This document shows, piece after piece, positions 1 through 60,785 of a DNA stretch of 64,000 nucleotides. The stretch spans positions 1 through 64,000 of the forward strand of contig CAMPDV010002117.1 in the NCBI GenBank assembly GCA_946699065.1. Direction: 5' to 3'. Positions within the stretch are counted from its first letter, which is position 1; each line of letters opens with the position of its first letter. This DNA is from Loxodes magnus. Taxonomy: Eukaryota; Ciliophora; Karyorelictea; Loxodida; Loxodidae. A program made the translations under genes and the position numbers. A model generated the notes under the pieces. That model saw only the letters and a list, made by a program, of their open reading frames with translations, did no database searches and was not told the origin of the DNA.

Positions 1-989
1 TATCCTCTCTTGTAATGTTTAAATTATTTGCGTTTTATAGATTTGTATATAGCTTTAATAGAAATGTCTAATTAGCTTGCTTTATCATAAAGAAGATTCA
101 TAATAGTTTTAAATCTTTTAGTCTTTTATTTTCTTTAATCTATTGAGTTTTATTCTTGAATCTTTATTTATAAATTTAGATAAATTTTAATCTCCTTATA
201 TTGGAATACTAACTTCATCTTATGTTTTGCTTTACTATAAGTTTAATATACTTATCTTTTCTTCTTCTTAGTTGGAATAACATTTTTCTTGTTGATTAAT
301 GATAAAATTGATGCTATTTTATTGGATCCACTGAGAATTATCTCTTAAAGTACTTAAATATTGATATTATTTAATGGAAAGTTCACTATGAACTAAGTTT
401 CTTAAGTTGCTTTATTGCTGCTTTTGCTTTCATTTTTTTCTCTCTTTGCATTCCTGAATAAAATCCATAATTGCTGCATAGCAAAAGAAAAAGAATCCAA
501 TATAAGTTAAGAATATATTAACTGAAAATATAAAGAATCCATACTATCGAAGGCAGTTCTTAGTAGTCTTGACTAAGTTTGTCCATGATCCCAAATATAA
601 AAGATAAGATTAAAGAAATTCAAAACTAAGATTCAAAGCTCTATAATGGCTTAACTAATTTACGTAACTTTTTTTTTAAAAGGTCTATGTTTGATCAAAT
701 AGATGGTCTAGTAAAGATTTATTTAAATTAGAAGAACTATTTATAAAATAGTGAAATCTCTAAAAATACAAATCACTATAGATAATAAAAACCTTCTTAT
801 AACAAATATTAAGTAATAGTACAAAGCATATTTGCTTGCATTGTTCAATTCATCAAATAATGGTCTATAAGAGAAAAATAATTAACCTAGCTCACATTCT
901 TCATCTAAATGATTCATGCCTTAGCTTTGAAGGGATAAAAATTTTGAAATTACTTTTTTTATTCTAAAGAGGAAATAAATTTGAAGGAT

Positions 990-1006
990 CTATATAATTA
1001 GCTTAC
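990..1006 (-). other. 17-nt GT-AG intron in copy 1
   Basis: On the minus strand this reads GTAAGCTAATTATATAG, identical to the intron of copy 3. It lies after two ATG codons between membrane segments. Removal is needed to keep the downstream frame, which encodes the conserved multipass C-terminus. Confidence 0.75.
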
Positions 1007-1304
1007 CATCATAGCTAGAGCTAAAACTAAATTAAAAATATTGTAAAAAGATTTGGTATCAATACAACTTATTTGAAGGAATGCTGCAAAGCAGAAGTCC
1101 AAAGTTTTATTAAGCAAGTTAGATAAAATAAGTTTGTATTTAATTTGTTCATTCATAAACTATTTGATTTTAAGTCTCCAGCATTTTAGAATTCACATCA
1201 ATAAATAAAATAAAGGTAGTATGCTAATGATTGCTGAGATTATAATCAAGTTAGTGAAGGAGTTGCAAAGAAAAGAAAAATTATAATATCCTTAAATAAA
1301 TAAA

Positions 1305-1754
1305 AAACTTAAATAAAATGATAATTAAATTTAGAATTAAGTTTTAGCTAATATATACTTCTTTTTAAAATAGCCAGTTTATCTTATTACATTTTTAATT
1401 AACCTAGTAAATTTTAAAGTTTTTATTATATTAAGATAAATATAGTTTTTATTTGTTTTTTCTCTAAATCTTCAGCATTAATTTTAAAATTTAATAAATT
1501 TAATATATATCGAATATGCATGTAATACCTCTAACCTTTTATACTGAGGATGGCTTAGAATATAATTGAAATAAATAATAATGCTAATATATGTAATACA
1601 ATACATTGATAATAAAAATTCATAATTAGATATACTTAAAGGCACACTTATAAGCGATTATTAAAAGTAAATTATTCAAAATTGTTGGATAAATATTTTT
1701 CTTTTGCTTGGCTTTTTTAAAAGATTTATTAACCATTTAATGTTTCTAAATTTA
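1305..1754. other. AT-rich filler at deletion site of copy 1
   Basis: This stretch separates the two preserved ends of copy 1. It matches neither copy 2 nor copy 3, and no coding pattern is apparent. The match to copy 2 resumes exactly at 1755 (copy 2 position 26968). Confidence 0.6.
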
Positions 1755-2932
1755 TAATGTAATTTTCTTTGTTGCTATCTAGGAGTTATAAAACCTATCT
1801 ACTTGAAAGGTCAAATAAGTTGAATTTACTTAAAACACTGAAGAAATATGGAAAAGTCCCTGGCAGTTTGTATTTGATGCTTGGATTCCTAGAATAAAAG
1901 AGTTAGAAGTACTAATGGTACTGGTACTTAGATCTATGGAATAAATTAATGTATAAGGTTTATTAGGAAGTTCATAGTAATTGTTCTAGAATTATTCAGC
2001 TAAGGTAACAAACCCTTCATCTTTAATATTAGATTTAGTTAAAAGCTTTCAGTTTAAAGTTAGTTCATAAAACTCTTTTTATAAGGTTGGTTCTATCCAA
2101 GCATATAGTCCGTTTTTTATTAAGTCATCAGTACATAATTTATCACTATATTAGAGACACTAAGAGTTAGTTCATTTATCTTAAAAGAAATCTTAGTTTA
2201 GTATAAAGTCTTAAGGTTAATGGTTGGAAGTGAATAGTTGTAAAAGGAATATTTTTCAAGTGCTTGGGTAAGTTTGGTAGCTTTAAAATTAAATTAACTA
2301 GATATCCTATAGAAATTTATTTTTAACCTGGAAATCTTAGCAATTAGCACTTAGAAATATTGAGCTAAAGCAAATTCTAAGGGAAATTTGTTAAGAGTAT
2401 TTATTTATTCAATAGGACATTGTAATAAAGTAATTCATAGAGGAATTCATATTCTACCTCACTTATAATGTTTCTAGGGAGTCTGTTAAGATTTATATTT
2501 TCATGTATCAAGCATAAGTTTCTTACTATTTAAAGGAAGCTGCTGAAAAATTAATAAATTGAGATTGATTTACTCCTAAAACTTTGAATATATCTAGCTG
2601 CTATTCTTACGTAAAGTTGACTTATAAATAGAAGCTGAAAGAATAGCCTATTTCATCTGAAGAATAATTAAAGTCGCTATTTATAAATTTGTCTAAGTAA
2701 AATGTTAAAGTTGTGTTTTTAGAGGAAATAGGTGAGGTAAGAGGAGTAATTAAATATCCATATGACTATAAAAATAATATTTAAAAGCTTAAGAGGACTA
2801 GGAGTCTTATAAAAGACATTTTATAATTTAAATTTAAGAATAAAAGAAAAATTAATAGTTAGACTTTATCTTTAGTTAACTATTAACTTTATTTGAAAAA
2901 TTAGATTTAAAAATAATAAATTAATTAATAAG

Positions 2933-17295: not shown

Positions 17296-18410
17296 TTTCA
17301 TTCATCTATTTTTAGGATGTCCAAGAAATACTTTTCTAACTCCTAAATCTTATAGAGCCATTGTGGATTTTCTTACTTGATTTATCTTAAATGCATCAGT
17401 ATAAAATCCTTCATCTTTTGCTAATAATCTATTTGATCTTCTCTTTTGTAATGTTTAAATTCTTTGAGTTTTATAGATTTATATATAGTTTAAATAGAAA
17501 TGTCTAATTGGCTTGCCTTATCATTAAGTAGATTCATAATAGTTTTAAATCTTTTAGCCTTTTATTTTCTATCATCTATTGCATTTTTCTTTTGTATCTT
17601 TATTTATAAATTGGATAAATTTTGATCTCCTTATATTAGAATGCTGCTATCATCTTGTGTTTAACTTTATTTTTAGTCGACTCTACTTATCTTTTCTTCT
17701 TCTTAGTTGGGCTAGCAATTTTCTTGCTAATTAGTGATAAAAGTGATTCTATTTTATTGGTTGCACTAAGAATTATCTCTTAAAGTACTTAAATCTTAAT
17801 ATTATTAAATGGAAAGTTCACTGTGAATTAAATTGTTTTATTGTTGCTTTAGTTTTTTTCTCTCTTTGCATTCCTGAATAAAATCCATAATTGCAGTATA
17901 GAAGAAGAAAAGGAATCCTAGAATTGTTAAAAAAACATTAACTGAAACTATAAAGATGCCGCATCTATCAAAGGTAGTACTCAACAGTCTTGGCTAAGTT
18001 TGTCCATGATCCCAAATATAAAAGATAAAATTAAAGAAATTCAAAACTAAGATTCAAAGCTCTATAATGGCTTAACTGATTTAAGTGGCTTTTCTTTTAA
18101 AAGGTGCATACTTGATTAAATAGATGATCTAGCAAAGATTGATTTAAATTAGAAGAACTATTTAGAAAATAGTAAAGTCTCTAAAAATACAAATCACTAT
18201 AGATAATAAAAACCTTCTTATAACAAATATTAAGTAATAGTACAAAGCATATTTGCTTCCATTGTTCAACTCATCAAATAATGGTCTATAAGAGAAAAAT
18301 AATTAACCTAGCTCACATTCTTCATCTAAATGATTCATGCCTTAGCTTTGAAGGGATAAAAATTTTGAAATTACTTTTTTTATTCTAAAGATGAAATAAA
18401 TTTGCAGGAT

Positions 18411-18427
18411 CTATATAGTTAACTTAC
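18411..18427 (-). other. 17-nt GT-AG intron in copy 2
   Basis: Minus strand GTAAGTTAACTATATAG. It differs from copies 1 and 3 only inside, keeping GTAAG at the 5' end and TATATAG at the 3' end. Splicing joins ATG ATG to ATC CTG and restores the membrane-domain frame. Confidence 0.85.
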
Positions 18428-19074
18428 CATCATAGTTAGAGCTAAAACTAAATTAAAAATATTGTAAAAAGATTTGGTATCAACACAAATTATTTGAAGG
18501 AATGCTGCTAAGCAGAAGTCCAAAGTTTTAGTAAGCAAGTTAGATAAAATAAGTTTGTATTTAATTTGCTTGTTTATAAACTATTTGATTTTAAGTCTCC
18601 AGCATTTTAGAATTCACATAAATAAATAAAATAAAGGTAGTATGCTAATAATTGCTGATATTATAATCAAGTTAGTGAAGGAGTTGTAAAGAAACGAATA
18701 ATTATCATATCCTTATAAGTAAAAACTAAAGTTCTCAATCTTCTATTCTTCAGGCTTTATATCAAAAGGAATTTTATTATTATCACTAGAAATAAATGGA
18801 GCAAAGCTAATTCCAAGTTTATAGTAATAATAATTTAGAACATCAGGACGAATTACATTAACCAGACCGTTTATTCTTACTATCTAAAGAGCTATAATTA
18901 ACTAAAAAACTTTGTTAAAAGATTAACTTGTTCCTAAAACTAAAATTACAGCTTAAACTCCTGCAACAGCTAATGATGCTATTACTAAAGTGCCTACCAT
19001 TCCCTAATTAACATCTACGAACTGCTTCTCTTATTCTGAAATTTCAATGTAATCAAATATAGAATTATCTTATT

Positions 19075-20985
19075 AATTTGGATTCTAATTTGCTATAAAA
19101 GTGCATTTTTCTTCTGTTGATATCATATAATTATCAGTATTTTTAGTGCATTCCTGTGTGCTATTACATTGTGAGCAATTTTAATTCTTGATGCACTTTT
19201 AGCATTAAATTGATTAATTCTAACTAAGATCTTAGGAAGAATAAAATACTAGAATATCATATTCCTACTCGCATTATATGCATTAAACATTTTTAGAGCA
19301 AATTTTATTTATTTTATCATATAAAGTACCATTTTAACATTCAGTACAATTTTATTGGAGCTAACTACATGCTACACAATTTTCTATAGCTTAACTACAA
19401 TTAACACATTAATTATCACTTTACATCTATCCCTATAAGCAAGTTACTTATAAACATTCCCTTGAGGTCTGATTAATTTCAAAATAATCTAAGCAAGAAA
19501 GACAATTAGAATTATCACACTCTTTACAATGACTTTCTTTTGTGTAGCAAGGAAGACATTTTTAGGAATTATCATCATAAAATTCATAATTACTGCCACA
19601 GTCTTTTGTACATTTATTATCAGATAATTTAAACTCTTCACTACAAGATATGCAGCCAAATCCATCAAATGAACATCTACTGCAGTTTTAAATACTACTT
19701 TAACATTCAATGCATTTATCTTCATTTAAAAAGAACCCTTAACTACATAGATTGCATTAAGAGTTACTACATAAAGCACAATTTGTCAAATTGCATGCCT
19801 CACATGCTTAGTTATAATTATTTTAAAATCCTTCATTACATTTACATTCATCTCCTACTGGGCTGCTATTTTCAAAACATTGAAGGCAAGATCCAGTATA
19901 AGTGCAATACTAGCACGAAAATTATTTTTCAGGACAGAAGAACAATTCATCATAATCATTTTCATCTATTACTTTAGAAATATTTTCACAACTACCTGAT
20001 GCATTGCTATAAATCAAATAAGTGTCATTATTTATTTCACATCTGCATTAGCCTTAAACTTCTTGGAGAGGAAAAGAACACTCATCAACTATTTTTATTG
20101 GATGATAAATGATTAAAGATTAATTTTATGGAACACATATAGAATATCCTCTAAAATTTAAAACTTCTCTTTCATACTTTTCACATTCCTCTACACACTA
20201 CCAACTTTAAGTAGATTAATTAAAATGGCTTTTAAATTATCCTGAACAATAGCAATTTAAACCAATTTCACATAGGCTTCCATATTAATCACATTTTTCT
20301 CCACAAGAAACCCATTCCTTAAAGAGTTTAGTATAATCTTCTAAATTATGGTTACTCTTAATGCATTGCTCATTTAAAAGCCTCGCTTCGTCTAAGCAGC
20401 TTTCACATATTAATTTCTATTTTTCAAGACTGATATAGCAATTCTTACAGTAAGCTGGACACTTCTGACACTATTATAATCATTCGTCATAAAATTAAGT
20501 TTCAGGACATTATCATTTTCCTTAATCAATAATCATTTCATTTGAAGTTTGGTTGACACATTTTGTATTATATTTACCTAAAATATAGCTTTGATTGCAT
20601 TTAATGCATTAAATATAATAAATATCTTTTTCTTGTTTTTCTTCATATTCTAAGCAGTTTTCTATTTGATAAGAAATACATTTTTTAAGTATTTAAGAAT
20701 AGTAAAATCCCTACTTGCATATACAATATTTAGTATTCTCTTACTATGTCTAGTTAAATAAATCATCACAATCACTTTAACACTCCTTACCATCATTTAA
20801 GAATCATCCATCCTAGCACTATTTACATTATGTAACCTCACATATTTAGCATTTATTAAAGTGATCACTACAATTTGAGCAACTAGAATTCTCAGAAGTT
20901 CTTACTTATCCTTAAGGGCAAGGCTCAATGCATTCTGTAGATTGACTCAAAATGTAAGTATCTTGTTGATTGATTAAATAGTAAA
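19075..20985 (-). other. Furin-like cysteine-rich repeat domain of copy 2
   Basis: Read on the minus strand, Cys occurs in dense CxxC-type repeats, for example CIECQSSIQNCSRCSFDGF and CTKDCGSNYEF, then CKECDNSNCLSCLDYF. This is the growth-factor-receptor/furin-like cysteine-rich pattern common in ciliate surface proteins. The domain lies immediately outside the first membrane segment, so it is extracellular and membrane-proximal. Copy 3 keeps only its first ~40 residues (to about 59020) and then joins directly to the sequence before the membrane segment, an in-frame loss of roughly 560 residues. Confidence 0.85.
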
Positions 20986-23900
20986 GTTAATATTGTTGAT
21001 TTGTAGTGAAAATTTAAGAATAATCATATGTATAAATATTTAATTAGTTTATACTAAATTAGCTATTCTCTAAGCTACTTATTTTTAAATAGCTTTCTTG
21101 TTATAACTTAATAGTTTCATTTACTATAAAGTCTTTACATAATGGTCATTGCAAAGAACTAAACTATATGCAAAATCTTATATTACATTAGGATTAATTA
21201 ACTATTTCAGTTTTTATAAACACTTTTGCCTAAAACTATTTTAGTCAGCATTATAAACTAAAATTTTAATTAGTTAATTATTTATCTCCAACAACTATGC
21301 TAAAATTAACTGCAAACTATTATTATTTCCACTCTATTGTAAAAGAAATATTTTTATTTCCTTCTTATATAAGTATGCATAAGTTAACTCCTGTAGAAGA
21401 TTTATTCTAGAGTATAAATTCAATTATCTAAATCTTTTATAAAAACTAATCATAGTAAAATATACTAACATTTGATCCATTTATTATAATATCATTATCC
21501 TTAGAAATATTTACTCATTCATCAACATATAAACTATGCATTCCCTTATTTAGAAAGCATGTCTCATTTACTATATATAAAGGATTATCTTCTATACACT
21601 AACCTAAGCAATTTTGCTAGCACTCGGTGTAGTGAGTTCATACATCCATCAACCTTTCTAAATCTAATAGTGATTCTTAAATATATAAATTACTTATTTT
21701 TACATCAAATATCCATTTATAAAATTCTATTTCCTATCCATGTTTCACATGAGAAACTGGAGAATTCCTAAAACTTAAATTTCACTATGGTTCAGTATAG
21801 AATAAAAGTGAGTAGTTTTGTATGGAATTATAGCATTATGATCTATATGAATAAGCTCCTCAACAATAGATTAGCATGGAAGAATTAAAACTTATAAGTA
21901 AGTGATTTCATTATACTTTATCATAATAAGGATACTTAATTTCTATATCTTACTATATCAATTGTATTACTCTCTTCTCTATTTCTATTACACCACTTAA
22001 AAATGATATTGGCTTTAATTTTTCATAGCTTCATATATCAAATAGCACATAACTATCATTTTATGTTTAATTTTCTAATTTAAATCAAAAGTCTAAATTA
22101 AAAGTTGTATTCATAGATAATTTTATTGCTTCATTTGCTTACTTATAGTTTATAAATGTTTCATTTTAATATACAAGTTATTATCCAAATCTCTCTAACT
22201 ATTATTTACCAATAGGATATCTATCTTTATAAAGCTCTAAGTGCTATAGCTAACTTTCCTTACAATAATAAGTGTTCTTATTATGATCTGGCTAAGCTTC
22301 AAGAACATATCCTAAAGAGCAGAAGCAGAACTATTAAATAGATGAATGGTTTATTTGTAAATAAGTTGCACTATTATTATATTAGTCACAATCAGGATAA
22401 ATTACTGAATGATAAAGGAAAAGAGAATTGTAAGTAAAGTTAGATTCTTATATAAATTACAAGTAACTTTAAGAACTCTACTCAATGTTGCAATTGACAG
22501 ATGAGTTAAATGATGCTTGTACAAATTTGCTGATTAAACTAGACTAAATTCTTACTTGTATTTGATATACCATGTTTGATAGCTATTTTTGTTATATTAG
22601 AATAAAATAGTAAAACTGATTATGTTCTAAGTCTAAAGCTATTGTTGATTAGTTTCCTAAGGCTTTTATCTCTTTTAACGTAACATGAAGTTAATTAGGG
22701 AATTTAGAGAATGATAGAGTGCAATATTGGTTTAGTATTGAGAAGAATTAGAATGGATAGCTATGTAGTGAATTAAAGTTGATCATAAATGCATAAGATA
22801 TTGTAGTTTATGTAAATAAATCATACTCAAATAACTAAGAATCATTTCCATACCAATATTTATTTCCTTATTAGTTGTTTATTTCTTTATTAACTACATA
22901 CTTATAACTATCATCACATCCTTCATCTAATTAAGGATCATCATTTATACAACTTCCCTTACAATTAAGTCAGCATGGAGTTAATAAACCTCAACAATCT
23001 ATCAATTTCTCTCCTTATTCAGAAATTAAACTATATTAACTACTAAATCTGATTGCCATTATTCAAGCATCTAAACTATCAACATTAGTCTCATTTGAAT
23101 ATGCTATATAAAGTTAAGACTAAAGTAAATTAGAGAGAGATAGTTAAATTAATTAGTATCTAAGACATTTAGAAGGAAACTTATAACTGGAATAGCAATA
23201 AATGGTGTCGTTAGTTTCATGGAAAGCAAATATTAACTAATGTCATTCTATTGTATTACATATACTAAATCTTGCCTTATTAGTTACATTTCATCTAGCT
23301 TGTATTTATGAAGTTTATCCAAGTAAGTATAAAGAGAATTGCTACTGATTATTGTTTATAAAGGATAGAATAAACATATTTTAGTTTTAAGTTTAATTAA
23401 ACTTGATTCAAAAGTAAAATACTAAGCTTTTGGAATTTGAGAAACTCTAGAGTTATTAAGTAAGATTATTAATAATAAAAGAGCTTTAAGGCTTTTAGAA
23501 ATACATTTACCTATCTTTATTTATTTAACCTATAAATACTTCATCACTTGGATACCTACATTTTTAAACAGGATACCTTTATCCTAAATCACCTGTTTAA
23601 TAAGTACATCAAACATTATCCTATTAACCATATTATCTTATATAGCATACACTGCAATCACAAAGGCTATTATAATTAGGGTATATTTAATTGTACTAAT
23701 TAGTAGAGTCGCATTATCACTCAAAATTCTAATTCTATTAGTTTATTTATAAATTGCGTATAGAATAACTTACTTAACTATAGCCAAACTATATAAATGA
23801 CTTCTCACCATGCTTTAACTTTATTATATTAGGACTTTAGATATTTAACATTGCAGAAACTCATTAATCATTTAAACTTCTTATAAATACTAATAAATAA

Positions 23901-24822
23901 GGATAGCTTGCTTAAGACTAAATAATCCATCAAAATATTTTTTAGCCTAAATCTTAATAGTCAGCTACTTAAATTAGTTTAGTATCTTTAATAGTGTTAT
24001 TTTCATAAAGATTTATAATAAATTAGTTGCTTTAATGCTATATTTCTATATAATATCCTTATTATGCTTATAACTAAACAACTTTATATTCTTATATCGA
24101 ATAATTAACCATTCACTATCCACTTATAGCTTAGCTATCTTTATCAAATAAATCACCTTAAAAACCTTAGCTATAACCATTTATTTAATACTATATATTT
24201 CTATTTATTTACCATCAATTTCCCTTAAACAGTTCATGACCCTCATTTCTACAACTAGAGACTGGACTATCAAAACTGCATATTCCATTACAAGATTATC
24301 AGCATGGAGTTTTAAAAGTTAGGTAATCATACCAAGAATCATTCATTCTTAAGTTATTATAGAATGTTAGATTGTATATTAAGCCTGAATAGTTAGCTAC
24401 ATTTTAAAAATTCACTTAAGATTTAACTTCTCCAACATTAAATATAGTTGAGGCATTTACCAGTTAATACAGAGGTTTTCCCTAATCTATTATTGAAAAG
24501 CATTGGGATTTAAATCAAAAGCTTGAATAGCATAATGTTGTATTATACTTTGCGTTTTAATATTTAACTTCTAGATAAATATGATGTCATTCAGCTTTGT
24601 AATAATAAGGATAATTATATCATTAGGTATTATTTCATTATACCTATAGAAAATTATAGTCATTTTATATAGTTACTGATAAAAGTATTTTATTTTAATT
24701 ACTTGTATCTTCAAATGAAAAAAGAGCAACATTAGAAATATTTTTTATAAAAGGTTTAATTCAAAAATCTAGTGATCAGTCATTAATTAAATTAGAAGAA
24801 GCTAAGTAATTAGTAAGTTTTA

Positions 24823-24827
24823 CTTTT
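24823..24827 (-). other. Single-base deletion in A-run of copy 2
   Basis: Copy 2 reads CAAAAGTAAAACTTAC on the minus strand where copy 3 (near 54965) reads CAAAAAGTAAATCTTAC. The change removes one base and shifts the frame upstream of a laminin-G-like module. Confidence 0.8.
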
Positions 24828-27800
24828 GATTATTTTATTCAAATAAGTTAGTGATTGGAATTTATATTCCTATTGGTTAAATAAATTAAGAAACGGGTAG
24901 TAAATTTTCAGTGGTTTTAATTGATTCTATACAATATTTACTTTAATTTATTACTAATTACTCAAATCCTATTTTACAAGTACATTTATCTGGTCAAGGA
25001 TATCTAGGAACGTAAACATTTTTTTTAATACATAATTTGCAGTTTTTTATCTCAAAGCAACTTTTGCACTCTTATTAACATCTTGGACATTTATTTCCAA
25101 ATTATGACTCTCAACAATATCAACAACTCTTTTTATTTTCATAAAAATTGGAAGGACATTCTTTAACACATTAGTAATTATATAAATGAAAGCCTGGTTT
25201 ACAATAAAGGGCCCTATTTACCGAAAGTCCATTACATCAAATCTAATTATATTAGCAAGGATAGCAAAAAGGCTAATTTATTGATAGCTTATTAGCTAAT
25301 GCAAACCCAGATTTACATGTATTATTACATTTCGTCTAAATTTAATGTTTATCGCAATCTAACGTTTATTATTAGATGCATCCTTCTTCAGTTATATAAT
25401 TACAACTTCCTGATTGACAAATCTCTGAACATCGAGATTTAAAATATTAGCTATATCAATTCAGTAAATCTATAGTATTAGATAGCCCAAAAGCTCTTGG
25501 AAATAGCTTCATATCTAAGAGTGGTATTTAATCTACTTAGTTTCAAGTTATTTTAAAATTAGTAGAATTTATTTAAATTCCTCCACTAAAAGGAGTGCAA
25601 CTATATTTTATACCAGAACTAAATGTATAAAATAAGGTAGTGGGTTAGCTTCATTTAGCTATAGTATGTTATCTTCATAGATAAGTTTTAATAGGACTTT
25701 AATGATAAGAAAGTAGAACTAGATAAACTTAGTTTTATATATAGTTAGTACTGATATTGATCTAACAATTACTATCATCTTAGAATATTAGTTAGTTAGT
25801 GTCTATAGTAAATTTAAATAGATTCTTATTTTGAGAGTTTGTAACTGTAAAGTAATTAAATTAGCCAGTCTTAGTTTACTTATATACAAATAATAAAGTT
25901 AAAACATCATCAGGAGTTTAAATATCTCTTAATCTATTTTAATCAAAAGCTTCATTTATTTAAATATAATCAGGATCCGTCAATTACAGATATTCTAATT
26001 AATCATACCAACAGTCATTTAATCCAGGACCAATACACTAGTTATAGCAAGATGGATGACAAATTTCATGATAATTGGTAAAAATATAATCAGCTTCATT
26101 CTGTGATAAGGCTATATAAGGAAAAAACTTAATCTTGTAATAAATTCCTTTAAACTTATTTTGATAATTATATCAGGAATTAATCAAAAAATATACATTT
26201 TAGGATAGTATTTACTTAATATTATCAGTACGAGTATAAATGGTAGAACTTTATTTTCAGGATTTTAAAATTAAATGAGATTAGCTAGAAGTATAATTCT
26301 TAATTAGTGCTATATGTAAGTATCCTTAGTTATAAATACTTTATTAGTTTCAATTTTCAGCTCCGTTTCTATAAAATCCATTTTAATAAATAACTTCTAG
26401 ATAATAATCATCTTATTGATTTCAGATATTTAAAATACCAGTTATTTCATTTTAAAAATAAATATCTCAATGAATTGTAAATAAAACTGATCATTAATTC
26501 CAATCAGAAACTCAGTCAAAATTTCCAAAAGAGCTATTTGAACCTAAAATTATATAATCACCTTCCCAATTAAATGTAATTTCTTCAATTAGTAAAAAGT
26601 ATAAATATTATTATTCCTCTCTATAGCACTAAGCTTATCCTCCAAATTTTATTTTTAAAGTTTCACAGTCAGTTAAGGTCTCATTTTGTATAATATCTTA
26701 TAAGTTATTATAGTTATATCCTATATGTGGATAATATTTTACTATATTTACTTTAAGTTCCATTTATTAAAAGTTAGTTAAACCAGATGGAGTACCTCCT
26801 ATGTATATTCTAGAATTTCCCTAGTCTAAAGTACAAAATGAGTTATTGGTAAACTCTTAGAAATCACAAATTATGTTAGTATTTTATGATTTAATACAGA
26901 ATATATCTTCATACCCACCTATATATTCTCTTATGCTATGACCTAGTAAATATTTTCCACTCTTTTCTAATGTAATTTTCTTTGTTGCTATCTAGGAGTT
27001 ATAAAATCTATCTACTTGAAAGGTTAAATAAGTTGAATTTACTTAAAAGACTGAAGAAATATGGAAAAGTCCCTGACAGTTTGTATTTGATGCTTGGATT
27101 CCTAGAATAAAAGAGTTAGAAGTACTAATGGTACTGGTAGTTAGATCTATGGAATAAATTAATGTATAAGGTTTATTAGGAAGTTCATAGTAATTGTTCT
27201 AGAATTATTCAGCTAAGGTAACAAACCCTTCATCTTTAATATTAGATTTAGTTAAAAGCTTTCAGTTTAAAGTTAGTTCATAAAACTCTTTTTATAAGGT
27301 TGGTTCTATCCAAGCATATAGTCCGTTTTTTATTAAGTCATCAGTACATAATTTATCACTATATTAGAGACACTAAGAGTTAGTTCATTTATCTTAAAAG
27401 AAATCTTAGTTTAGTATAAAGTCTTAAGGTTAATGGTTGGAAGTGAATAGTTGTAAAAGGAATATTTTTCAAGTGCTTGGGTAAGTTTGGTAGCTTTAAA
27501 ATTAAATTAACTAGATATCCTATAGAAATTTATTTTTAACCTGGAAATCTTAGCAATTAGCACTTAGAAATATTGAGCTAAAGCAAATTCTAAGGGAAAT
27601 TTGTTAAGAGTATTTATTTATTCAATAGGACATTGTAATAAAGTAATTCATAGAGGAATTCATATTCTACCTCACTTATAATGTTTCTAGGGAGTCTGTT
27701 AAGATTTATATTTTCATGTATCAAGCATAAGTTTCTTACTATTTAAAGGAAGCTGCTGAAAAATTAATAAATTGAGATTGATTTACTCCTAAAACTTTGA

Positions 27801-28145
27801 ATATATCTAGCTACTATTCTTACGTAAAGTTGACTTATAAATAGAAGCTAAAAGAATAGCCTATTTCATCTGAAGAATAATTAAAGTCGCTATTTATAAA
27901 TTTGTCTAAGTAAAATGTTAAAGTTGTGTTTTTAGAGGAAATAGGTGAGGTAAGAGGAGTAATTAAATATCCATATGACTATAAAAATAATATTTAAAAG
28001 CTTAAGAGGACTAGGAGTCTTATAAAAGACATTTTATAATTTAAATTTAAGAATAAAAGAAAAATTAATAGTTAGACTTTATCTTTAGTTAACTATTAAC
28101 TTTATTTGAAAAATTAGATTTAAAAATAATAAATTAATTAATAAG

Positions 28146-42019: not shown

Positions 42020-42988
42020 ATAAAATATGGTAGAAGGTTTCAAAAAGGGCTTCTATACCACCTCTTTCTAAGCTAAAAAGGAAGAGAGGAAGCAGGAAAC
42101 CTAAATTTCTAAACACCACACGTCATCTTCCAAAACCAAACCTTCTTCTTAAACCATATAGGAGCAACTCTAAACAACACCCCCCAGACAACCCTAGAAA
42201 CACTAACATGCAACAATATCGACTGAGGACCTTCCCAAGAAGCAAAAGATTAGTAACTTTCAGGCCTAGATTAGGGCATTCAACCCCTACATGGACCTCG
42301 GAGATCTCAATAAAGAACAAATCTTAGGAATGACGAAGGAGGAAATGGCTAAGCTTATCTTAGCATTAATAGGAAAAAATAAAGACCTGGAAAAACAGAT
42401 TGAAGAACTAGCTTAAGAATAGCAAGAGCATTTAGAAGATGAGGAAACCCATGCTCCTAGAAACAAAAACAAAGCTGCCATGAATATTCGAATTGACGAA
42501 TTCGACAGGCAGTTGGAATAGCTATATGATATGAACGAGAACATGCACATCAAGTTAGAGAAAATTGAAAACAATATTAACCTTAAAATGGAGAACATCA
42601 AGAATGATATCAAGATCTAGACAGCACACTCCGTTCCAATGGAGTTGGAAGAGGTCTAGAATAAACAAATTGAATTAACTAAAGGAAGATACTTTAAGAA
42701 AAAATGCTTTATCTGTGGAAGAATAAACCATCTCTGAAGGAAATGCAGATAAAGAAAAGAGATACAAAAGAAAATTTGAAACGAACTAACCTAATTCTAC
42801 CCAACTAGCAGTGGGAATATTTACAGGAAGAAAAGCAATATTCGGAGCAATCCACTGCGAAGACTTGAAAGTGACTGGAGGAACAGACCACCAAGAGTTC
42901 AAGTACCTATCAGTTGGATAGGGAGTAGGAAACTATTAAGAAAACAATCCCTTCTCTGAATAACTTTAATTTAATTTAATTTAATTTA
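42020..42988 (+). mobile_element. Short non-LTR-type retroelement insertion
   Basis: A 969-bp insertion is bounded by perfect 18-bp direct repeats. Its body is far richer in G and C than the flanks. It has no terminal repeats and ends in five TTTAA units (42965-42989), resembling the simple-repeat 3' tails of LINE-like elements. It encodes a nucleic-acid-binding protein with a CCHC zinc knuckle but no reverse transcriptase or endonuclease, so it is either non-autonomous or internally deleted relative to an autonomous parent. Its start codon lies only 7 bp inside the left boundary, implying a very short leader. The alternative of a retrotransposed host mRNA fits less well, because the tail is not poly(A). 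Confidence 0.8.
42027..42959 (+). CDS. Retroelement Gag/ORF1-like zinc-knuckle protein
   Basis: About 310 codons from the ATG at 42027; the TGA at 42957-42959, just before the TTTAA tail, is a candidate stop. Gln is written as TAA, TAG, CAA and CAG. The order is: a polar Ser/Thr/Pro/Gln-rich N-terminus, an acidic-basic coiled-coil-like region (42310-42620, for example GKNKDLEKQIEEL and MENIKNDIKI), then a CX2CX4HX4C knuckle, CFICGRINHLWRKC (42705-42746), whose Trp is TGA. This is the RNA-binding motif of retroelement Gag/ORF1 proteins. After about 42780 the +1 frame looks more protein-like (STQLAVGIFTGRKAIFGAIH, then EDLKVTGGTD, ending NNPFSE). There may therefore be a frameshift, programmed or mutational, between 42750 and 42810. 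Codon use (AAG, ATC, CTC, GAG) is unlike the host-type genes. Confidence 0.75.
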
Positions 42989-51756: not shown

Positions 51757-54700
51757 ATGTCTTTTATAAGACTCCTAGTCCTTTTAAGCTTTTAAATATT
51801 ATTTTTATAGTCATATGGATATTTAATTACTCCTCTTACCTCACCCATTTCCTCTAAAAACACAACTTTAACATTTTACTTAGACAAATTTATAAATAGC
51901 GACTTTAATTATTCTTCAGATGAAATAGGCTATTCTTTTAGCTTCTATTTATAAATCAACTTTACGTAAGAATAGCAGCTAGATATACTCAAAGTTTTAG
52001 GAGTAAATCAGTCTCAATTTATTAATTTTTCAGCAGCTTCCTTTAAATAGTAAGAAACTTATGCTTGATACATGAAAATATAAATCTTAACAGACTCCCT
52101 AGAAACATTATAAGTGAGGTAGAATATGAATTCCTCTATGAATTACTTTATTACAATGTCCTATTGAATAAATAAATACTCTTAACAAATTTCCCTTAGA
52201 ATTTGCTTTAGCTCAATATTTCTAAGTGCTAATTGCTAAGATTTCCAGGTTAAAAATAAATTTCTATAGGATATCTAGTTAATTTAATTTTAAAGCTACC
52301 AAACTTACCCAAGCACTTGAAAAATATTCCTTTTACAACTATTCACTTCCAACCATTAACCTTAAGACTTTATACTAAACTAAGATTTCTTTTAAGATAA
52401 ATGAACTAACTCTTAGTGTCTCTAATATAGTGATAAATTATGTACTGATGACTTAATAAAAAACGGACTATATGCTTGGATAGAACCAACCTTATAAAAA
52501 GAGTTTTATGAACTAACTTTAAACTGAAAGCTTTTAACTAAATCTAATATTAAAGATGAAGGGTTTGTTACCTTAGCTGAATAATTCTAGAAAAATTACT
52601 ATGAACTTCCTAATAAACCTTATACATTAATTTATTCCATAGATCTAAGTACCAGTACCATTAGTACTTCTAACTCTTTTATTCTAGGAATACAAGCATC
52701 AAGTACAAACTGTCAGGGACTTTTCCATATTTCTTCAGTGTTTTAAGTAAATTCAACTTATTTAACCTTTCAAGTAGATAGATTTTATAACTCCTAGAAA
52801 ACATCAAAGAAAATTACATTAGAAAAGAAAGAAAAATATTTACTAGGTCATAGCATAAGAGAATATATAGGTGGGCATGAAGATATATTCTGTATTAAAT
52901 CATAAAATACTAACATAATTTGTGATTTCTAAGAGTTTACCAATAACTCATTTTGTACTTTAGACTAAGGAGATTCTAGAATATACATAGGAGGTACTCC
53001 ATCTGGTTTAACTAGTTTTTAATAAATGGAACTTAAAGTAAATATAGTAAAATATTATCCACATATAGGATATAACTATAATAACTTATAAGATATTATA
53101 CAAAATGAGACCTTAACTGACTGTGAAGCTTCAAAAATAAAATTTGGGGGATAAGCTTAGTGCTATAGAGAGGAATAATAATATTTATACTTTTTACTAA
53201 TTGAAGAAATTACATTTAATTGGGAAGAAAATTATGTAATTTTAGGTTCGAATAGTTCTTTTGGAAATTTTGACTGAGTTTCTGATTGGAATTAATGATC
53301 CATTTTATTTACAATTCATTGAGATATTTATTTTTAAAATGAAGAAACTGGTATTTTAAATATCTGAAATAAATAAGATAATTATTATCTAGAAGCGAAA
53401 TACTTAAACGGATTTTATAGAAATGGAGGTGAAAATTGAAACTAATAAAGTATTTATAACTAAGGATACTTACATATAGCACTAATTAAGAATTACTCTT
53501 CTAGCTAATCTCATTTAATTTTAAAATCCTGAAAATAAAGTTCTACCATTTATACTCGTACTGATAATATTAAGTCAATATTAGCTTAAAATTCTGCAAT
53601 TTTTTCAATTAGTTCTTTCTATATTTTTTAAAATAAGTTTAAAGGAACTTATTACAAGATTAAGTTTTTTCCTTATATAGCCTTATCACAGAATGAAGCT
53701 GATTATATTTTTACCAATTATCATGAAATTTGTCATCCATCTTGCTATAACTAGTGTATTGGTCCTGGATTAAATGACTGTTGGTATGATTAATTAGAAT
53801 ATCTGTAATTGACGGATCCTGATTATATTTAAATAAATGAAGCTTTTGATTAAAATAGATTAAGAGATATTTAAACTCCTGATGATGTTTTAACTTTATT
53901 ATTTGTATATAAGTAAACTAAGACTGGCTAATTTAATTACTTTACAGTTACAAACTCTCAAAATAAGAATCTATTTAAATTTACTATAGACACTAACTAA
54001 CTAATATTCTAAGATGATAGTAATTGTTAGATCAATATCAGTACTAACTATATATAAAACTAAGTTTATCTAGTTCTACTTTCTTATCATTAAAGTCCTA
54101 TTAAAACTTATCTATGAAGATACCATACTATAGCTAAATGAAGCTAACCCACTACCTTATTTTATACATTTAGTTCTGGTATAAAATATAGTTGCACTCC
54201 TTTTAGTGGAGGAATTTAAATAAATTCTACTAATTTTAAAATAACTTGAAACTAAGTAGATTAAATACCACTCTTAGATATGAAGCTATTTCCAAGAGCT
54301 TTTCCATTATCTAATATTTAAGGTTTACTGAATTGATATAGCTAATATTTTAAATCTCGCTGTTCAGAGATTTGCCAATCAGAAAGTTGTAATTATATTA
54401 CTGAAGAAGGATGCATCTAATAATAAACGTTAACTTGCAGTAAACATCTTGTATAAAAGGCAATCTGTGATAATACATGTATATCTGGATTTGCATTAGC
54501 TAATAAAACTTCCGTAAATTAGCCATTCTGTTATCCTTGCTATTATAAATAGTTAAAATGTGATGGAATTTTACCAAATAGTACTCTTTAATGTAAGTAA
54601 GGCTTTTATTATAACACAAAATAATGTGTTAAAGAATGTCCTTCCAATTTTTACGCTAACATTAATTGCATATAATGCTATGAGCCATAATTAGGAAATA

Positions 54701-57700
54701 AATGTCCAAGATGCATATAAGATTGTAAAGGTTGTTAATCCATAAATAAATGTAAAATATGCATTAAAAAATAATTTTACAATCAAGTATTTCCTGTAGC
54801 GGGTCTTTGCGTTTGTAAGATAGGATTTGAGTAATTAGAAATAAATTAAAGTAAATATTGTATAGAATCAATTAAAACCACTGAAGATATACTACCTGTT
54901 TCTTAATTTATTTAACCAATAGGAATATAAATTCCAATCACCAACTTATTTGAGTAAAACAATCAAAAAGTAAATCTTACTAATTACTTAGCTTCTTCTA
55001 ATTTAATTAATGACTGATCACTAGATTTTTGAATTAAGCCTTTTATTAAAAATATTTCTAATGTTGCTCTTTTTTCATTTGAAGATACAAGTAATTAAAA
55101 TAAAATACTTTTATCAGTAACTATATAAAATGACTATAATTTTCTATAGGTATGATGAGATATTAACTAATGATATAATTTTCCTTATTATTACAAAGCT
55201 GAATGACATCATATTTATCTAGAAGTTAAATATTAAAACACAAAGTATAATACAACATTATGCTATTCAAGCTTTTGATTTAAATCCTAATGCTTTTCAA
55301 TAATAGATTAGGGAAAACCTCTGTATTAACTGGTAAATGCCTCAACTATATTTAATGTTGGAGAAGTTAAATCTTAAGTGAATTTAAAAAATATAGCTAA
55401 CTATTCAGGCTTAATATACAATCTAACATTCTATAATAACTTAAGAATGAATGATTCTTGGTATGATTACCTAACTTTTAAAACTCCTTGCTGATAATCT
55501 TGTAATGGAATATGCAGTTTTGATAGTCCAGTCTCTAGTTGTAGAAATGAGGGTCATGAACTGTTTAAGGGAAATTGATGGTAAATAAATAGAAATATAT
55601 AGTATTAAATAAATGGTTATAGCTAAGGTTTTTAAGGTGATTTATTTGATAAAGATAGCTAAGCTATAAGTGGATAGTGAATGGTTAATTATTCGATATA
55701 AGAATATAAAGTTGTTTAGTTATAAGCATAATAAGGATATTATATAGAAATATAGCATTAAAGCAACTAATTTATTATAAATCTTTATGAAAATAACACT
55801 ATTAAAGATACTAAACTAATTTAAGTAGCTGACTATTAAGATTTAGGCTAAAAAATATTTTGATGGATTATTTAGTCTTAAGCAAGCTATCCTTATTTAT
55901 TAGTATTTATAAGAAGTTTAAATGATTAATGAGTTTCTGCAATGTTAAATATCTAAAGTCCTAATATAATAAAGTTAAAGCATGGTGAGAAGTCATTTAT
56001 ATAGTTTGGCTATAGTTAAGTAAGTTATTCTATACGCAATTTATAAATAAACTAATAGAATTAGAATTTTGAGTGATAATGCGACTCTACTAATTAGTAC
56101 AATTAAATATACCCTAATTATAATAGCCTTTGTGATTGCAGTGTATGCTATATAAGATAATATGGTTAATAGGATAATGTTTGATGTACTTATTAAACAG
56201 GTGATTTAGGATAAAGGTATCCTGTTTAAAAATGTAGGTATCCAAGTGATGAAGTATTTATAGGTTAAATAAATAAAGATAGGTAAATGTATTTCTAAAA
56301 GCCTTAAAGCTCTTTTATTATTAATAATCTTACTTAATAACTCTAGAGTTTCTCAAATTCCAAAAGCTTAGTATTTTACTTTTGAATCAAGTTTAATTAA
56401 ACTTAAAACTAAAATATGTTTATTCTATCCTTTATAAACAATAATCAGTAGCAATTCTCTTTATACTTACTTGGATAAACTTCATAAATACAAGCTAGAT
56501 GAAATGTAACTAATAAGGCAAGATTTAGTATATGTAATACAATAGAATGACATTAGTTAATATTTGCTTTCCATGAAACTAACGACACCATTTATTGCTA
56601 TTCCAGTTATAAGTTTCCTTCTAAATGTCTTAGATACTAATTAATTTAACTATCTCTCTCTAATTTACTTTAGTCTTAACTTTATATAGCATATTCAAAT
56701 GAGACTAATGTTGATAGTTTAGATGCTTGAATAATGGCAATCAGATTTAGTAGTTAATATAGTTTAATTTCTGAATAAGGAGAGAAATTGATAGATTGTT
56801 GAGGTTTATTAACTCCATGCTGACTTAATTGTAAGGGAAGTTGTATAAATGATGATCCTTAATTAGATGAAGGATGTGATGATAGTTATAAGTATGTAGT
56901 TAATAAAGAAATAAACAACTAATAAGGAAATAAATATTGGTATGGAAATGATTCTTAGTTATTTGAGTATGATTTATTTACATAAACTACAATATCTTAT
57001 GCATTTATGATCAACTTTAATTCACTACATAGCTATCCATTCTAATTCTTCTCAATACTAAACCAATATTGCACTCTATCATTCTCTAAATTCCCTAATT
57101 AACTTCATGTTACGTTAAAAGAGATAAAAGCCTTAGGAAACTAATCAACAATAGCTTTAGACTTAGAACATAATCAGTTTTACTATTTTATTCTAATATA
57201 ACAAAAATAGCTATCAAACATGGTATATCAAATACAAGTAAGAATTTAGTCTAGTTTAATCAGCAAATTTGTACAAGCATCATTTAACTCATCTGTCAAT
57301 TGCAACATTGAGTAGAGTTCTTAAAGTTACTTGTAATTTATATAAGAATCTAACTTTACTTACAATTCTCTTTTCCTTTATCATTCAGTAATTTATCCTG
57401 ATTGTGACTAATATAATAATAGTGCAACTTATTTACAAATAAACCATTCATCTATTTAATAGTTCTGCTTCTGCTCTTTAGGATATGTTCTTGAAGCTTA
57501 GCCAGATCATAATAAGAACACTTATTATTGTAAGGAAAGTTAGCTATAGCACTTAGAGCTTTATAAAGATAGATATCCTATTGGTAAATAATAGTTAGAG
57601 AGATTTGGATAATAACTTGTATATTAAAATGAAACATTTATAAACTATAAGTAAGCAAATGAAGCAATAAAATTATCTATGAATACAACTTTTAATTTAG

Positions 57701-60700
57701 ACTTTTGATTTAAATTAGAAAATTAAACATAAAATGATAGTTATGTGCTATTTGATATATGAAGCTATGAAAAATTAAAGCCAATATCATTTTTAAGTGG
57801 TGTAATAGAAATAGAGAAGAGAGTAATACAATTGATATAGTAAGATATAGAAATTAAGTATCCTTATTATGATAAAGTATAATGAAATCACTTACTTATA
57901 AGTTTTAATTCTTCCATGCTAATCTATTGTTGAGGAGCTTATTCATATAGATCATAATGCTATAATTCCATACAAAACTACTCACTTTTATTCTATACTG
58001 AACCATAGTGAAATTTAAGTTTTAGGAATTCTCCAGTTTCTCATGTGAAACATGGATAGGAAATAGAATTTTATAAATGGATATTTGATGTAAAAATAAG
58101 TAATTTATATATTTAAGAATCACTATTAGATTTAGAAAGGTTGATGGATGTATGAACTCACTACACCGAGTGCTAGCAAAATTGCTTAGGTTAGTGTATA
58201 GAAGATAATCCTTTATATATAGTAAATGAGACATGCTTTCTAAATAAGGGAATGCATAGTTTATATGTTGATGAATGAGTAAATATTTCTAAGGATAATG
58301 ATATTATAATAAATGGATCAAATGTTAGTATATTTTACTATGATTAGTTTTTATAAAAGATTTAGATAATTGAATTTATACTCTAGAATAAATCTTCTAC
58401 AGGAGTTAACTTATGCATACTTATATAAGAAGGAAATAAAAATATTTCTTTTACAATAGAGTGGAAATAATAATAGTTTGCAGTTAATTTTAGCATAGTT
58501 GTTGGAGATAAATAATTAACTAATTAAAATTTTAGTTTATAATGCTGACTAAAATAGTTTTAGGCAAAAGTGTTTATAAAAACTGAAATAGTTAATTAAT
58601 CCTAATGTAATATAAGATTTTGCATATAGTTTAGTTCTTTGCAATGACCATTATGTAAAGACTTTATAGTAAATGAAACTATTAAGTTATAACAAGAAAG
58701 CTATTTAAAAATAAGTAGCTTAGAGAATAGCTAATTTAGTATAAACTAATTAAATATTTATACATATGATTATTCTTAAATTTTCACTACAAATCAACAA
58801 TATTAACTTTACTATTTAATCAATCAACAAGATACTTACATTTTGAGTCAATCTGCAGAATGTATTGAGCCTTGCCCTTAAGGATAAGTAAGAACTTCAG
58901 AGAATTCTAGTTGCTCAAATTGTAGCGATCTATTTTATAAATGCTAAATATGTGAGGCTAAAAGATGCAAATAGTGCTAGGATGGATGATTCTTGAATGA
59001 TAATAAGAAGTGTTAAAGTGATTAAAACAATTCTGTATTTAATTACATTGAAATTTCAGAATAAGAGAAACAATTCGTAGATGTTAATTAAGGAATGATA
59101 GACACTTTAGTGATAGCATCATTAGCTGTTGCAGGCGTTTAAGCTGTAATATTAGTTTTAGGAACAAGTTAATCTTTTAACAAAGTTTTTTAGTTAATTG
59201 TAGCCCTTTAGATTATAAGAATAAACGGATTGGTAAATGTAATTCGCCCTGATGTTTTAAATTATTATTACTATAAACTTGGAATGAGTTTTGCTCCTTT
59301 TATTTCAAGTGATAATAATAAAATTCCTTTTGATATAAAGCCTGAAGAATAGAAGATTGAGAACTTTAGTTTTTATTTATAAGGATATGATAATTATTCG
59401 TTTCTTTGCAACTCTTTCGCTAACTTGATCATAATTTCAGCAATCATTAGTATACTACCTTTATTTTATTTATTGATGTGAATTCTAAAATGCTGGAGAC
59501 TTAAAATCAAATAATTTATGAACGCGCAAATTAAATATAAACTTATTTTGTCTAACTTGCTCACTAAAACTTTGGACTTCTGCTTAGCAGCATTTCTTCA
59601 AATAAGCTATATTGATATCAGATCTTTTTATAATATTTTTAATTTAGTTTTAGCTCTAATTATGATGGTAAGCTAATTATATAGATCCTTCAAATTTATT
59701 TCATCTTTAGAATAAAAAAAGTAATTTAAAAATTTTTATCTCTTCAAAGCTAAGGCATGAATCATTTAGATGAAGACTGTGAGCTGGGTTAATTATTTCT
59801 TTCTTATAGACCATTATTTGATGAGTTGAACAATGAAAGCAAATATGCTTTGTACTATTACTTAATATTTGTTATAAGAAGGTTTTTAACATCTATAGTA
59901 ATTTGTATTTTTAGAGACTTTACTATTTTCTAAATAGTTCTCCTAGTTTAAATAAATCTTTACTAGATCATCTATTTGTTCAAGCAAAAACCTTTTAAAA
60001 GAAAAGCCACTTAAATTAGTTAAGTCATTATAGAGCTTTGAATCTTAGTTTTGTTTTTCTTTAATTTAATCTTTTATATTTGAGATCATGGATAAACTTA
60101 ACCCAGGTTATTAAGTACTACCTTCGATAGATGTGGCATCTTTATAGTTTCAGTTAATGTATTCTTAACTGTTCTAGGATTCCTTTTCTTCTTCTATGCT
60201 GCAGTTATGGACTTTATTCAAGAATGCAAAACGAGAAAAAAACTAAAAGAAAACTAGTAAAAACAATAAAAAAGCAATATTATTCATAGTGAACTTTCCA
60301 TTTAATAATATAAAGATTAAAGTACTCTAAGAGATATTTCCTAATGCAACTAATAACTAACACATAAAATAAATTTCATCACTAATCAAGAAGAAGAAAA
60401 GATAAGTAAATTCGATTTATAGCCAAACGAAATAAAAGATGATAGCAGCATTCTAATATAAGGAGATTAAAATTTATCTAATTTATAAATAAAGATACAG
60501 TAATAAAAAGCAATAGATAACAGAAAATAAAAGTTTAAAACTATTATGAATCTTCTATATGAAAAGGCAAAACAATTAGATATTTCTATTAAAACTATTC
60601 ATAAATCTATAAAACGCAAAGAATTTAAATATTATAAGAGAAGAGACCAAATAGATTACTAGCAAAAGATAAAGGATTTTATACTAATGCATTTAAGATA

Positions 60701-60785
60701 AATAGAGTAGGAAAATCCATAATGGTTCAATAAGATTTAGGAGTTAAAAAGCTTTTTCTTGGAAATCCTTAAAAAAATAGACTGA
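51757..60785 (+). CDS. Intact giant cysteine-rich, LamG-like multipass surface protein
   Basis: join(51757..59667,59685..60785), about 3,003 aa, TAA/TAG read as Gln and TGA as Trp. By hand count exon 1 has about 46 TGA and 11 TGG codons in frame. It starts MSFIRLLVLLSFQILFLQSYG, a signal peptide. Several laminin-G/ConA-like modules follow (WSLDFWIKPF near residue 1088, FNLDFWFKLE near 1979), separated by linkers such as NDCWYDQ, CWQSCNGIC, CWLNCKGSC and CQQNCLGQC. Cys-rich stretches occur near residues 870-1030 and 2360-2420. From about residue 2450 the protein has six or seven membrane segments (TLVIASLAVAGVQAVILVLG; GIFIVSVNVFLTVLGFLFFF), then a basic, Gln-rich cytoplasmic tail. Likely a plasma- or ciliary-membrane adhesion or sensing protein; ligand unknown. 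The final TGA aligns with that of copy 2 and is taken as the stop, but could be Trp. Confidence 0.9.
59668..59684 (+). other. 17-nt GT-AG intron in copy 3
   Basis: GTAAGCTAATTATATAG. Unspliced, the frame beyond it loses the conserved membrane domain; spliced, it gives ILQIYFIFRIKKV and later YIWDHGQTQPRL. It is present at the same site in all three copies. Confidence 0.9.

Follow-up and report, generated by a model that had tools for sequence, protein, structure and literature searches.

A large surface-protein-like gene on contig C2117 (positions 1-64000, the 64,000-nucleotide stretch analysed here and called the window) raises the question of how a coding sequence crowded with in-frame TAA, TAG and TGA codons is read. 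It had originally been predicted from the letters of the window that all three stop codons are reassigned, with TAA and TAG read as glutamine and TGA as tryptophan. Genome-wide comparisons over 705,730,643 bases in 7,843 contigs make it almost certain that the gene is an ordinary nuclear one, translated with NCBI table 27 in a karyorelict ciliate. The species is very probably Loxodes magnus, judging by the A+T content, the 17-nucleotide intron and the code. According to the available part of the L. magnus paper (PMC11441545), UAA and UAG in that code specify Gln, and UGA is both Trp and the sole stop. The code assignment was right but is already published for karyorelicts, and no new code is involved. 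The analysis is a sequence-only demonstration of a published ambiguous code, with added gene-level and transfer RNA (tRNA)-level detail.

Sense meanings of the three codons in the gene family

The gene (copy 3 of those in the window, which has an A+T content of 79%) was compared with two further copies in the window and with five longer paralogous stretches fetched from elsewhere in the genome (L032-L036). Its parts are as follows.

51757..59667, plus strand: exon 1 of the large surface-protein-like gene, ATG at 51757, 2637 codons, with 46 TGA read as Trp and TAA/TAG read as Gln
59668..59684, plus strand: GT-AG intron of 17 nucleotides, GTAAGCTAATTATATAG; the same length in window copies 1-3 and L033-L036, seven copies in all
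59685..60785, plus strand: exon 2, two internal TGA (60039, 60081); encodes hydrophobic stretches and a charged tail
60783..60785, plus strand: terminating TGA, 234 codons past the last in-frame TGA; same-place TGA in copy 2 and L033-L036

The limits and 2637 codons of exon 1, the intron and the end at 60785 were all recovered exactly as first modelled. The TGA sites that had been singled out as Trp-like are likewise present, at 57931 (CWGAYSY), 55015 and 55030 (WSLDFWIKPF), 55492 (CWQSC) and 56821 (CWLNC). The spliced coding sequence of 3,004 codons, stop included, contains 49 TGA (one of them the stop), 12 TGG, 198 TAA, 62 TAG and 49 CAA/CAG, so that 48 of 60 Trp residues would be encoded by TGA; exon 1 holds 11 TGG against its 46 TGA. 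L032 failed to align at the intron site. The modal intron of L. magnus is also 17 nucleotides, as given in the available part of PMC11441545.

Paralogs were aligned with TGA, TAA and TAG all written as X, and no code was assumed. The codon alignment left out L034, which matches in several frames, and 20 shorter loci (L009-L028, L009 being the window itself). In L033, L035 and L036 the match to the exon-1 frame is continuous; in L032 it covers 2,340 aligned codons. Amino-acid identity to the gene is 89% for L035, 89% for L036, 67% for L033 and 48% for L032, with ratios of non-synonymous to synonymous substitution (dN/dS) of 0.46, 0.50, 0.41 and 0.29, respectively.

Homologous alignments had been proposed as a check for gaps or stops at the TGA sites, and they came out in favour of Trp. 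Among 43 window TGA codons aligned without gaps to L032, the opposite codon is TGA in 26 cases and TGG in six, giving 32/43 kept as one or the other at 48% identity. Freely decaying AT-rich sequence would often turn TGA into TAA; only two of the 43 sites are opposite TAA, which speaks against decay. When the sense partners of TGA are counted in both directions, Trp makes up 8/28 in L032 (52-fold over its base rate) and 6/28 in L033 (40-fold), and the next most enriched partners are Phe at 1.9-fold (L032) and Leu at 2.1-fold (L033). Window copies 1 and 2 and L034 have TGG in place of the TGA at 60081. Across three internal repeats with 23-26% identity, two Trp columns do not vary, and the window encodes each of the six residues as TGA.

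54901..55545, plus strand: concanavalin-A-like / LamG-like repeat 1, TGA-coded Trp at 55030 and 55204, invariant among the three internal repeats
56341..56850, plus strand: concanavalin-A-like / LamG-like repeat 2, TGA-coded Trp at 56383 and 56548
57622..58239, plus strand: concanavalin-A-like / LamG-like repeat 3, TGA-coded Trp at 57706 and 57883

The alignments thus support the reading of internal TGA as Trp. They also support Gln for TAA and TAG, since no sense partner is more enriched than Gln opposite TAA (20/192, 5.4-fold, in L032; 15/148, 6.1-fold, in L033) or opposite TAG (9/58, 8.1-fold, in L032; 4/37, 6.5-fold, in L033). In-frame TAA and TAG occur inside tubulin, kinase and eRF1 genes as well.

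The original prediction had leaned on a different argument, namely that exon 1 reads without interruption only if all three codons are sense. This test is vacuous: without stop codons every frame is open, so the frame had to be proven coding by other means, and the length of the uninterrupted frame was dropped as evidence. Counted up to 59719, the three frames of exon 1 contain 46 (coding frame), 24 and 102 TGA; for the coding frame, 37 are expected from background and 55 from position-specific composition. TGA in the exon-1 frame is neither strongly avoided nor enriched relative to expectation. The presence of the same TGA codons in copy 2 was a further argument, and it adds little, as copies 2 and 3 are 99% and 97% identical over their two longest stretches. 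The TGA codons common to both were dropped as evidence because the copies are too alike to be independent. What supports the code is the paralogs, together with conserved genes in other parts of the genome, and not frame length. The two other copies in the window are located as follows.

17300..28032, minus strand: copy 2 of the gene, inverted, from inverted repeats I1, I2, I4, I5, I7, I8 and I10; limits approximate, taken from the repeat arms
1..2913, minus strand: partial copy 1; a C-terminal piece joined to an N-terminal one, middle absent

TGA in other genes and at the ends of genes

Protein kinases, tubulins and a retroelement family provided independent sites. About 91 of 136 scored kinase domains (hand count) list at least one in-frame TGA. 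In D-[IVL]-W-S-x-G, which we take to be a kinase motif, the Trp site is TGA in 11/18 and TGG in 7/18 fetched loci. These 18 kinase loci, together with two tubulin loci, were picked for in-frame TGA; they bear on what TGA means and say nothing of how often it occurs. Blind alignments, in which TGA was written as X, set one kinase (L049) and one beta-tubulin (L057) against known structures. In the beta-tubulin, two of three X fall opposite Trp and one opposite Gly; in the kinase, two of four fall opposite Trp in both alignments made, and the other two lie opposite residues that differ between the alignments.

The claim that a retroelement protein in the window carries a TGA inside its zinc knuckle was also confirmed.

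42735..42737, plus strand: TGA within the zinc knuckle of the retroelement protein; 18 fetched relatives compared

The relatives, selected for lower identity among 150 scored, have TGA at this site in 12 cases, TGG in two, TTA in one and TAA in one, and two are out of frame. The zinc knuckle lies below the Pfam cut-off (E 0.047), and the retroelement label comes from the original prediction together with the CCHC pattern. Two of the relatives, L081 and L082, look mutually close; in both, TGG stands at the two TGA sites of the window copy.

The use of TGA for Trp varies between genes. All Trp codons are TGG in alpha-tubulin L001 (three Trp) and in the eRF1 gene L030 (four Trp). The best-matching tubulin genes, clustered on contig C64, lack TGA in the part of the protein searched, and many other tubulin copies have one to three.

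Several observations weigh against the Trp and Gln assignments. Opposite 11 of the 43 window TGA codons, L032 has some other codon: Leu in three cases, Tyr in two, TAA in two, and Phe, Thr, Ile and Pro in one each. In the blinded alignments of L049 and L057, 3/7 X fall opposite residues other than Trp. Gln is ahead only by enrichment: by raw count, Lys is commoner than Gln opposite both TAA and TAG in L032 and L033, as is Ser opposite TAA in L033. Finally, tRNA-Gln with a UUA or CUA anticodon was not found with the single pattern tried, which may misfit this species, so that the Gln reading rests on the alignments.

TGA is also the codon at which genes end. It terminates the studied gene, window copy 2, L033-L036, alpha-tubulin L001 and eRF1 L030, a small sample. 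Pfam and a match to the eRF1 structure 1dt9 (E 8e-159) identify L030 as eRF1; it starts at 1456 and stops at 2764, with two further in-frame TGA no more than five codons past the stop. The TASNIKS-like motif of this eRF1 reads RAQNIKS in L030, and also in L031. In the studied gene, the last 233 codons ahead of the stop hold no TGA (an observation from one gene), and the last TAA and last TAG lie 21 and 15 codons ahead of it. This TGA and TAA spacing agrees with the published depletion of UGA and UAA, but not UAG, over about 20 codons ahead of stops in L. magnus, as described in the available part of PMC11441545. The statement that all three stop codons are reassigned therefore holds for their sense meanings of Gln, Gln and Trp, as supported by the alignments, and fails in one respect: TGA is not simply reassigned, as it is also the stop.

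These features match NCBI table 27 as described in the available parts of the papers on L. magnus (PMC11441545) and Parduczia sp. (PMC4967479): UAA and UAG as Gln, UGA as Trp or stop, UGA seen as a stop, scarcity of UGA before the stop, and a 17-nucleotide intron. Set against those descriptions, no differing feature was found in the gene.

Among other explanations, the one that survives best, although very improbable, is a Condylostoma-type code (NCBI table 28), in which UAA and UAG would also act as stops in context. Its sense meanings (Gln, Gln, Trp) are identical to those of code 27, and termination is context-dependent there too. In Condylostoma, however, UAA and UAG terminate genes (PMC4967479, available part), and the few genes read to their ends here (the studied gene and five copies, L001 and L030) all stop at TGA. 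The intron of 17 nucleotides also differs from the 15-16 nucleotides published for heterotrichs, as reported in the accessible portion of PMC11441545.

Slightly less probable again is a family of decayed pseudogenes in which TGA is a true stop, as in Tetrahymena (code 6). Decay would fit the plainly broken copy 1, the apparent frame change of copy 2 near 24.83 kb, and those paralogs that are incomplete or align in more than one frame. Decay is opposed by the retention of TGA or TGG at 32/43 sites at 48% identity with TAA opposite only two, by dN/dS values that do not exceed 0.50, and by kinase and tubulin domains elsewhere with TGA at Trp sites. The least probable alternative, to which we give almost no weight, is that TGA encodes Cys (as in Euplotes) or selenocysteine: the protein is Cys-rich, some TGA codons adjoin Cys, and one L033 TGA and one L032 TGA lie opposite a window Cys codon, but window TGA is opposite Cys at 0/43 sites in L032 and 0/45 in L033, window Cys codons are kept as Cys at 94% (L032) and 98% (L033), dN/dS rises with all four paralogs under the Cys reading, and 48 selenocysteine sites in a single protein are implausible.

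Tryptophan tRNAs and the probable decoding of UGA

Looking elsewhere in the genome for a tRNA able to read UGA as Trp had been proposed as a check. ARAGORN and Rfam found nothing in the window. Genome-wide, the first two tRNA-Trp genes found have a CCA anticodon and a 5-bp anticodon stem. A similarity search, in which the best 40 of 131 candidates were scored, led to a tRNA-Trp array on contig C148 (C148:155453-209571). In the ARAGORN drawings of two tRNA-Trp genes (L059 and L060), U27 and C43 do not pair, which leaves an anticodon stem of 4 bp. A 10-kb stretch of the array (L084, C148:155300-165299) contains 34 tRNA-Trp genes called by ARAGORN and 35 copies of the anticodon arm, identical in stem and loop throughout; 34 of the 35 lie on one strand, at a spacing of 241-242 nucleotides.

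A pattern open to either CCA or UCA, which would miss more diverged genes, matched 76 tRNA-Trp arms across the genome, all with CCA. The short stem (4 bp, U27 and C43 unpaired) is present in 72 of the 76, all of them on C148, and one arm, on C7736, has an altered stem. The remaining three, on C110, have a normal 5-bp stem, which weighs against the main reading. No tRNA-Trp(UCA) was found with two patterns and one similarity search of the genome. The proposed check therefore yielded a likely decoder of UGA, the short-stem tRNA-Trp(CCA).

Such a short-stem tRNA-Trp(CCA) is known from Loxodes according to the available part of a NAR 2026 paper, which cites Swart et al. The genes found here resemble the published tRNA in their CCA anticodon and in the broken top pair 27-43; they differ in lying mostly in one tandem array of 241-242-nucleotide units. 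No description of a tandem array of short-stem tRNA-Trp was found in the literature searched, including the main text of PMC11441545, in which the term 'tRNA' is absent.

In the mechanism we envisage, the short-stem tRNA-Trp(CCA) would read UGA, and the choice between Trp and stop would follow from nearness to the 3′ end of the messenger RNA, as described earlier for karyorelicts and Condylostoma. We suggest, tentatively and with less than even confidence, that UGA decoding may depend on gene dosage, with about 70 near-identical short-stem tRNA-Trp(CCA) genes, amplified on one contig, whose near-cognate product wins over eRF1 at internal UGA, and with the few normal-stem genes serving UGG. If this were true, the length of the tRNA-Trp array would set the balance between Trp and stop at UGA. 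The short-stem array is the one element that could make it easier to test how UGA can be decoded and still act as a terminator.

Predicted product and copies of the gene

The product of the gene, read with code 27, is most likely a membrane protein of 3,003 residues with a signal peptide and several C-terminal transmembrane segments, as predicted from the translation. Its extracellular part most likely carries concanavalin-A-like (LamG/pentraxin-like) and Cys-rich repeats. The beta-sandwich fold of a concanavalin-A-like / LamG domain was found. Pfam scans of the gene and repeats gave only matches under the family cut-offs and no LamG-type match, and one repeat and the profile built from it, searched against Protein Data Bank (PDB) sequences, gave only hits with E values of 0.38 or worse. 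As there is no LamG-type sequence match, the repeats are LamG-like by fold only.

The surface-protein-like gene belongs, as judged from its matches, to a large amplified family with concanavalin-A-like repeats. A 900-residue query listed at least 54 places in the genome, each with in-frame TGA, TAG and TAA; the count takes in the copies in the window, some places are fragments of a single copy, and the best 51 of 500 candidates were scored. In copy 1 of the window, the C-terminal piece extends to about 1304 and the N-terminal piece spans 1751-2913, and the C-terminal frame departs from that of the other copies. Copy 2 seems to shift frame near 24815-24850 (minus strand), where its identity to copy 3 falls to about 80%; the edge of a gene conversion, an intron or a break are possible explanations. 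Family members occur several per contig and in both orientations, for example on C394, C1083, C990, C1657 and C843.

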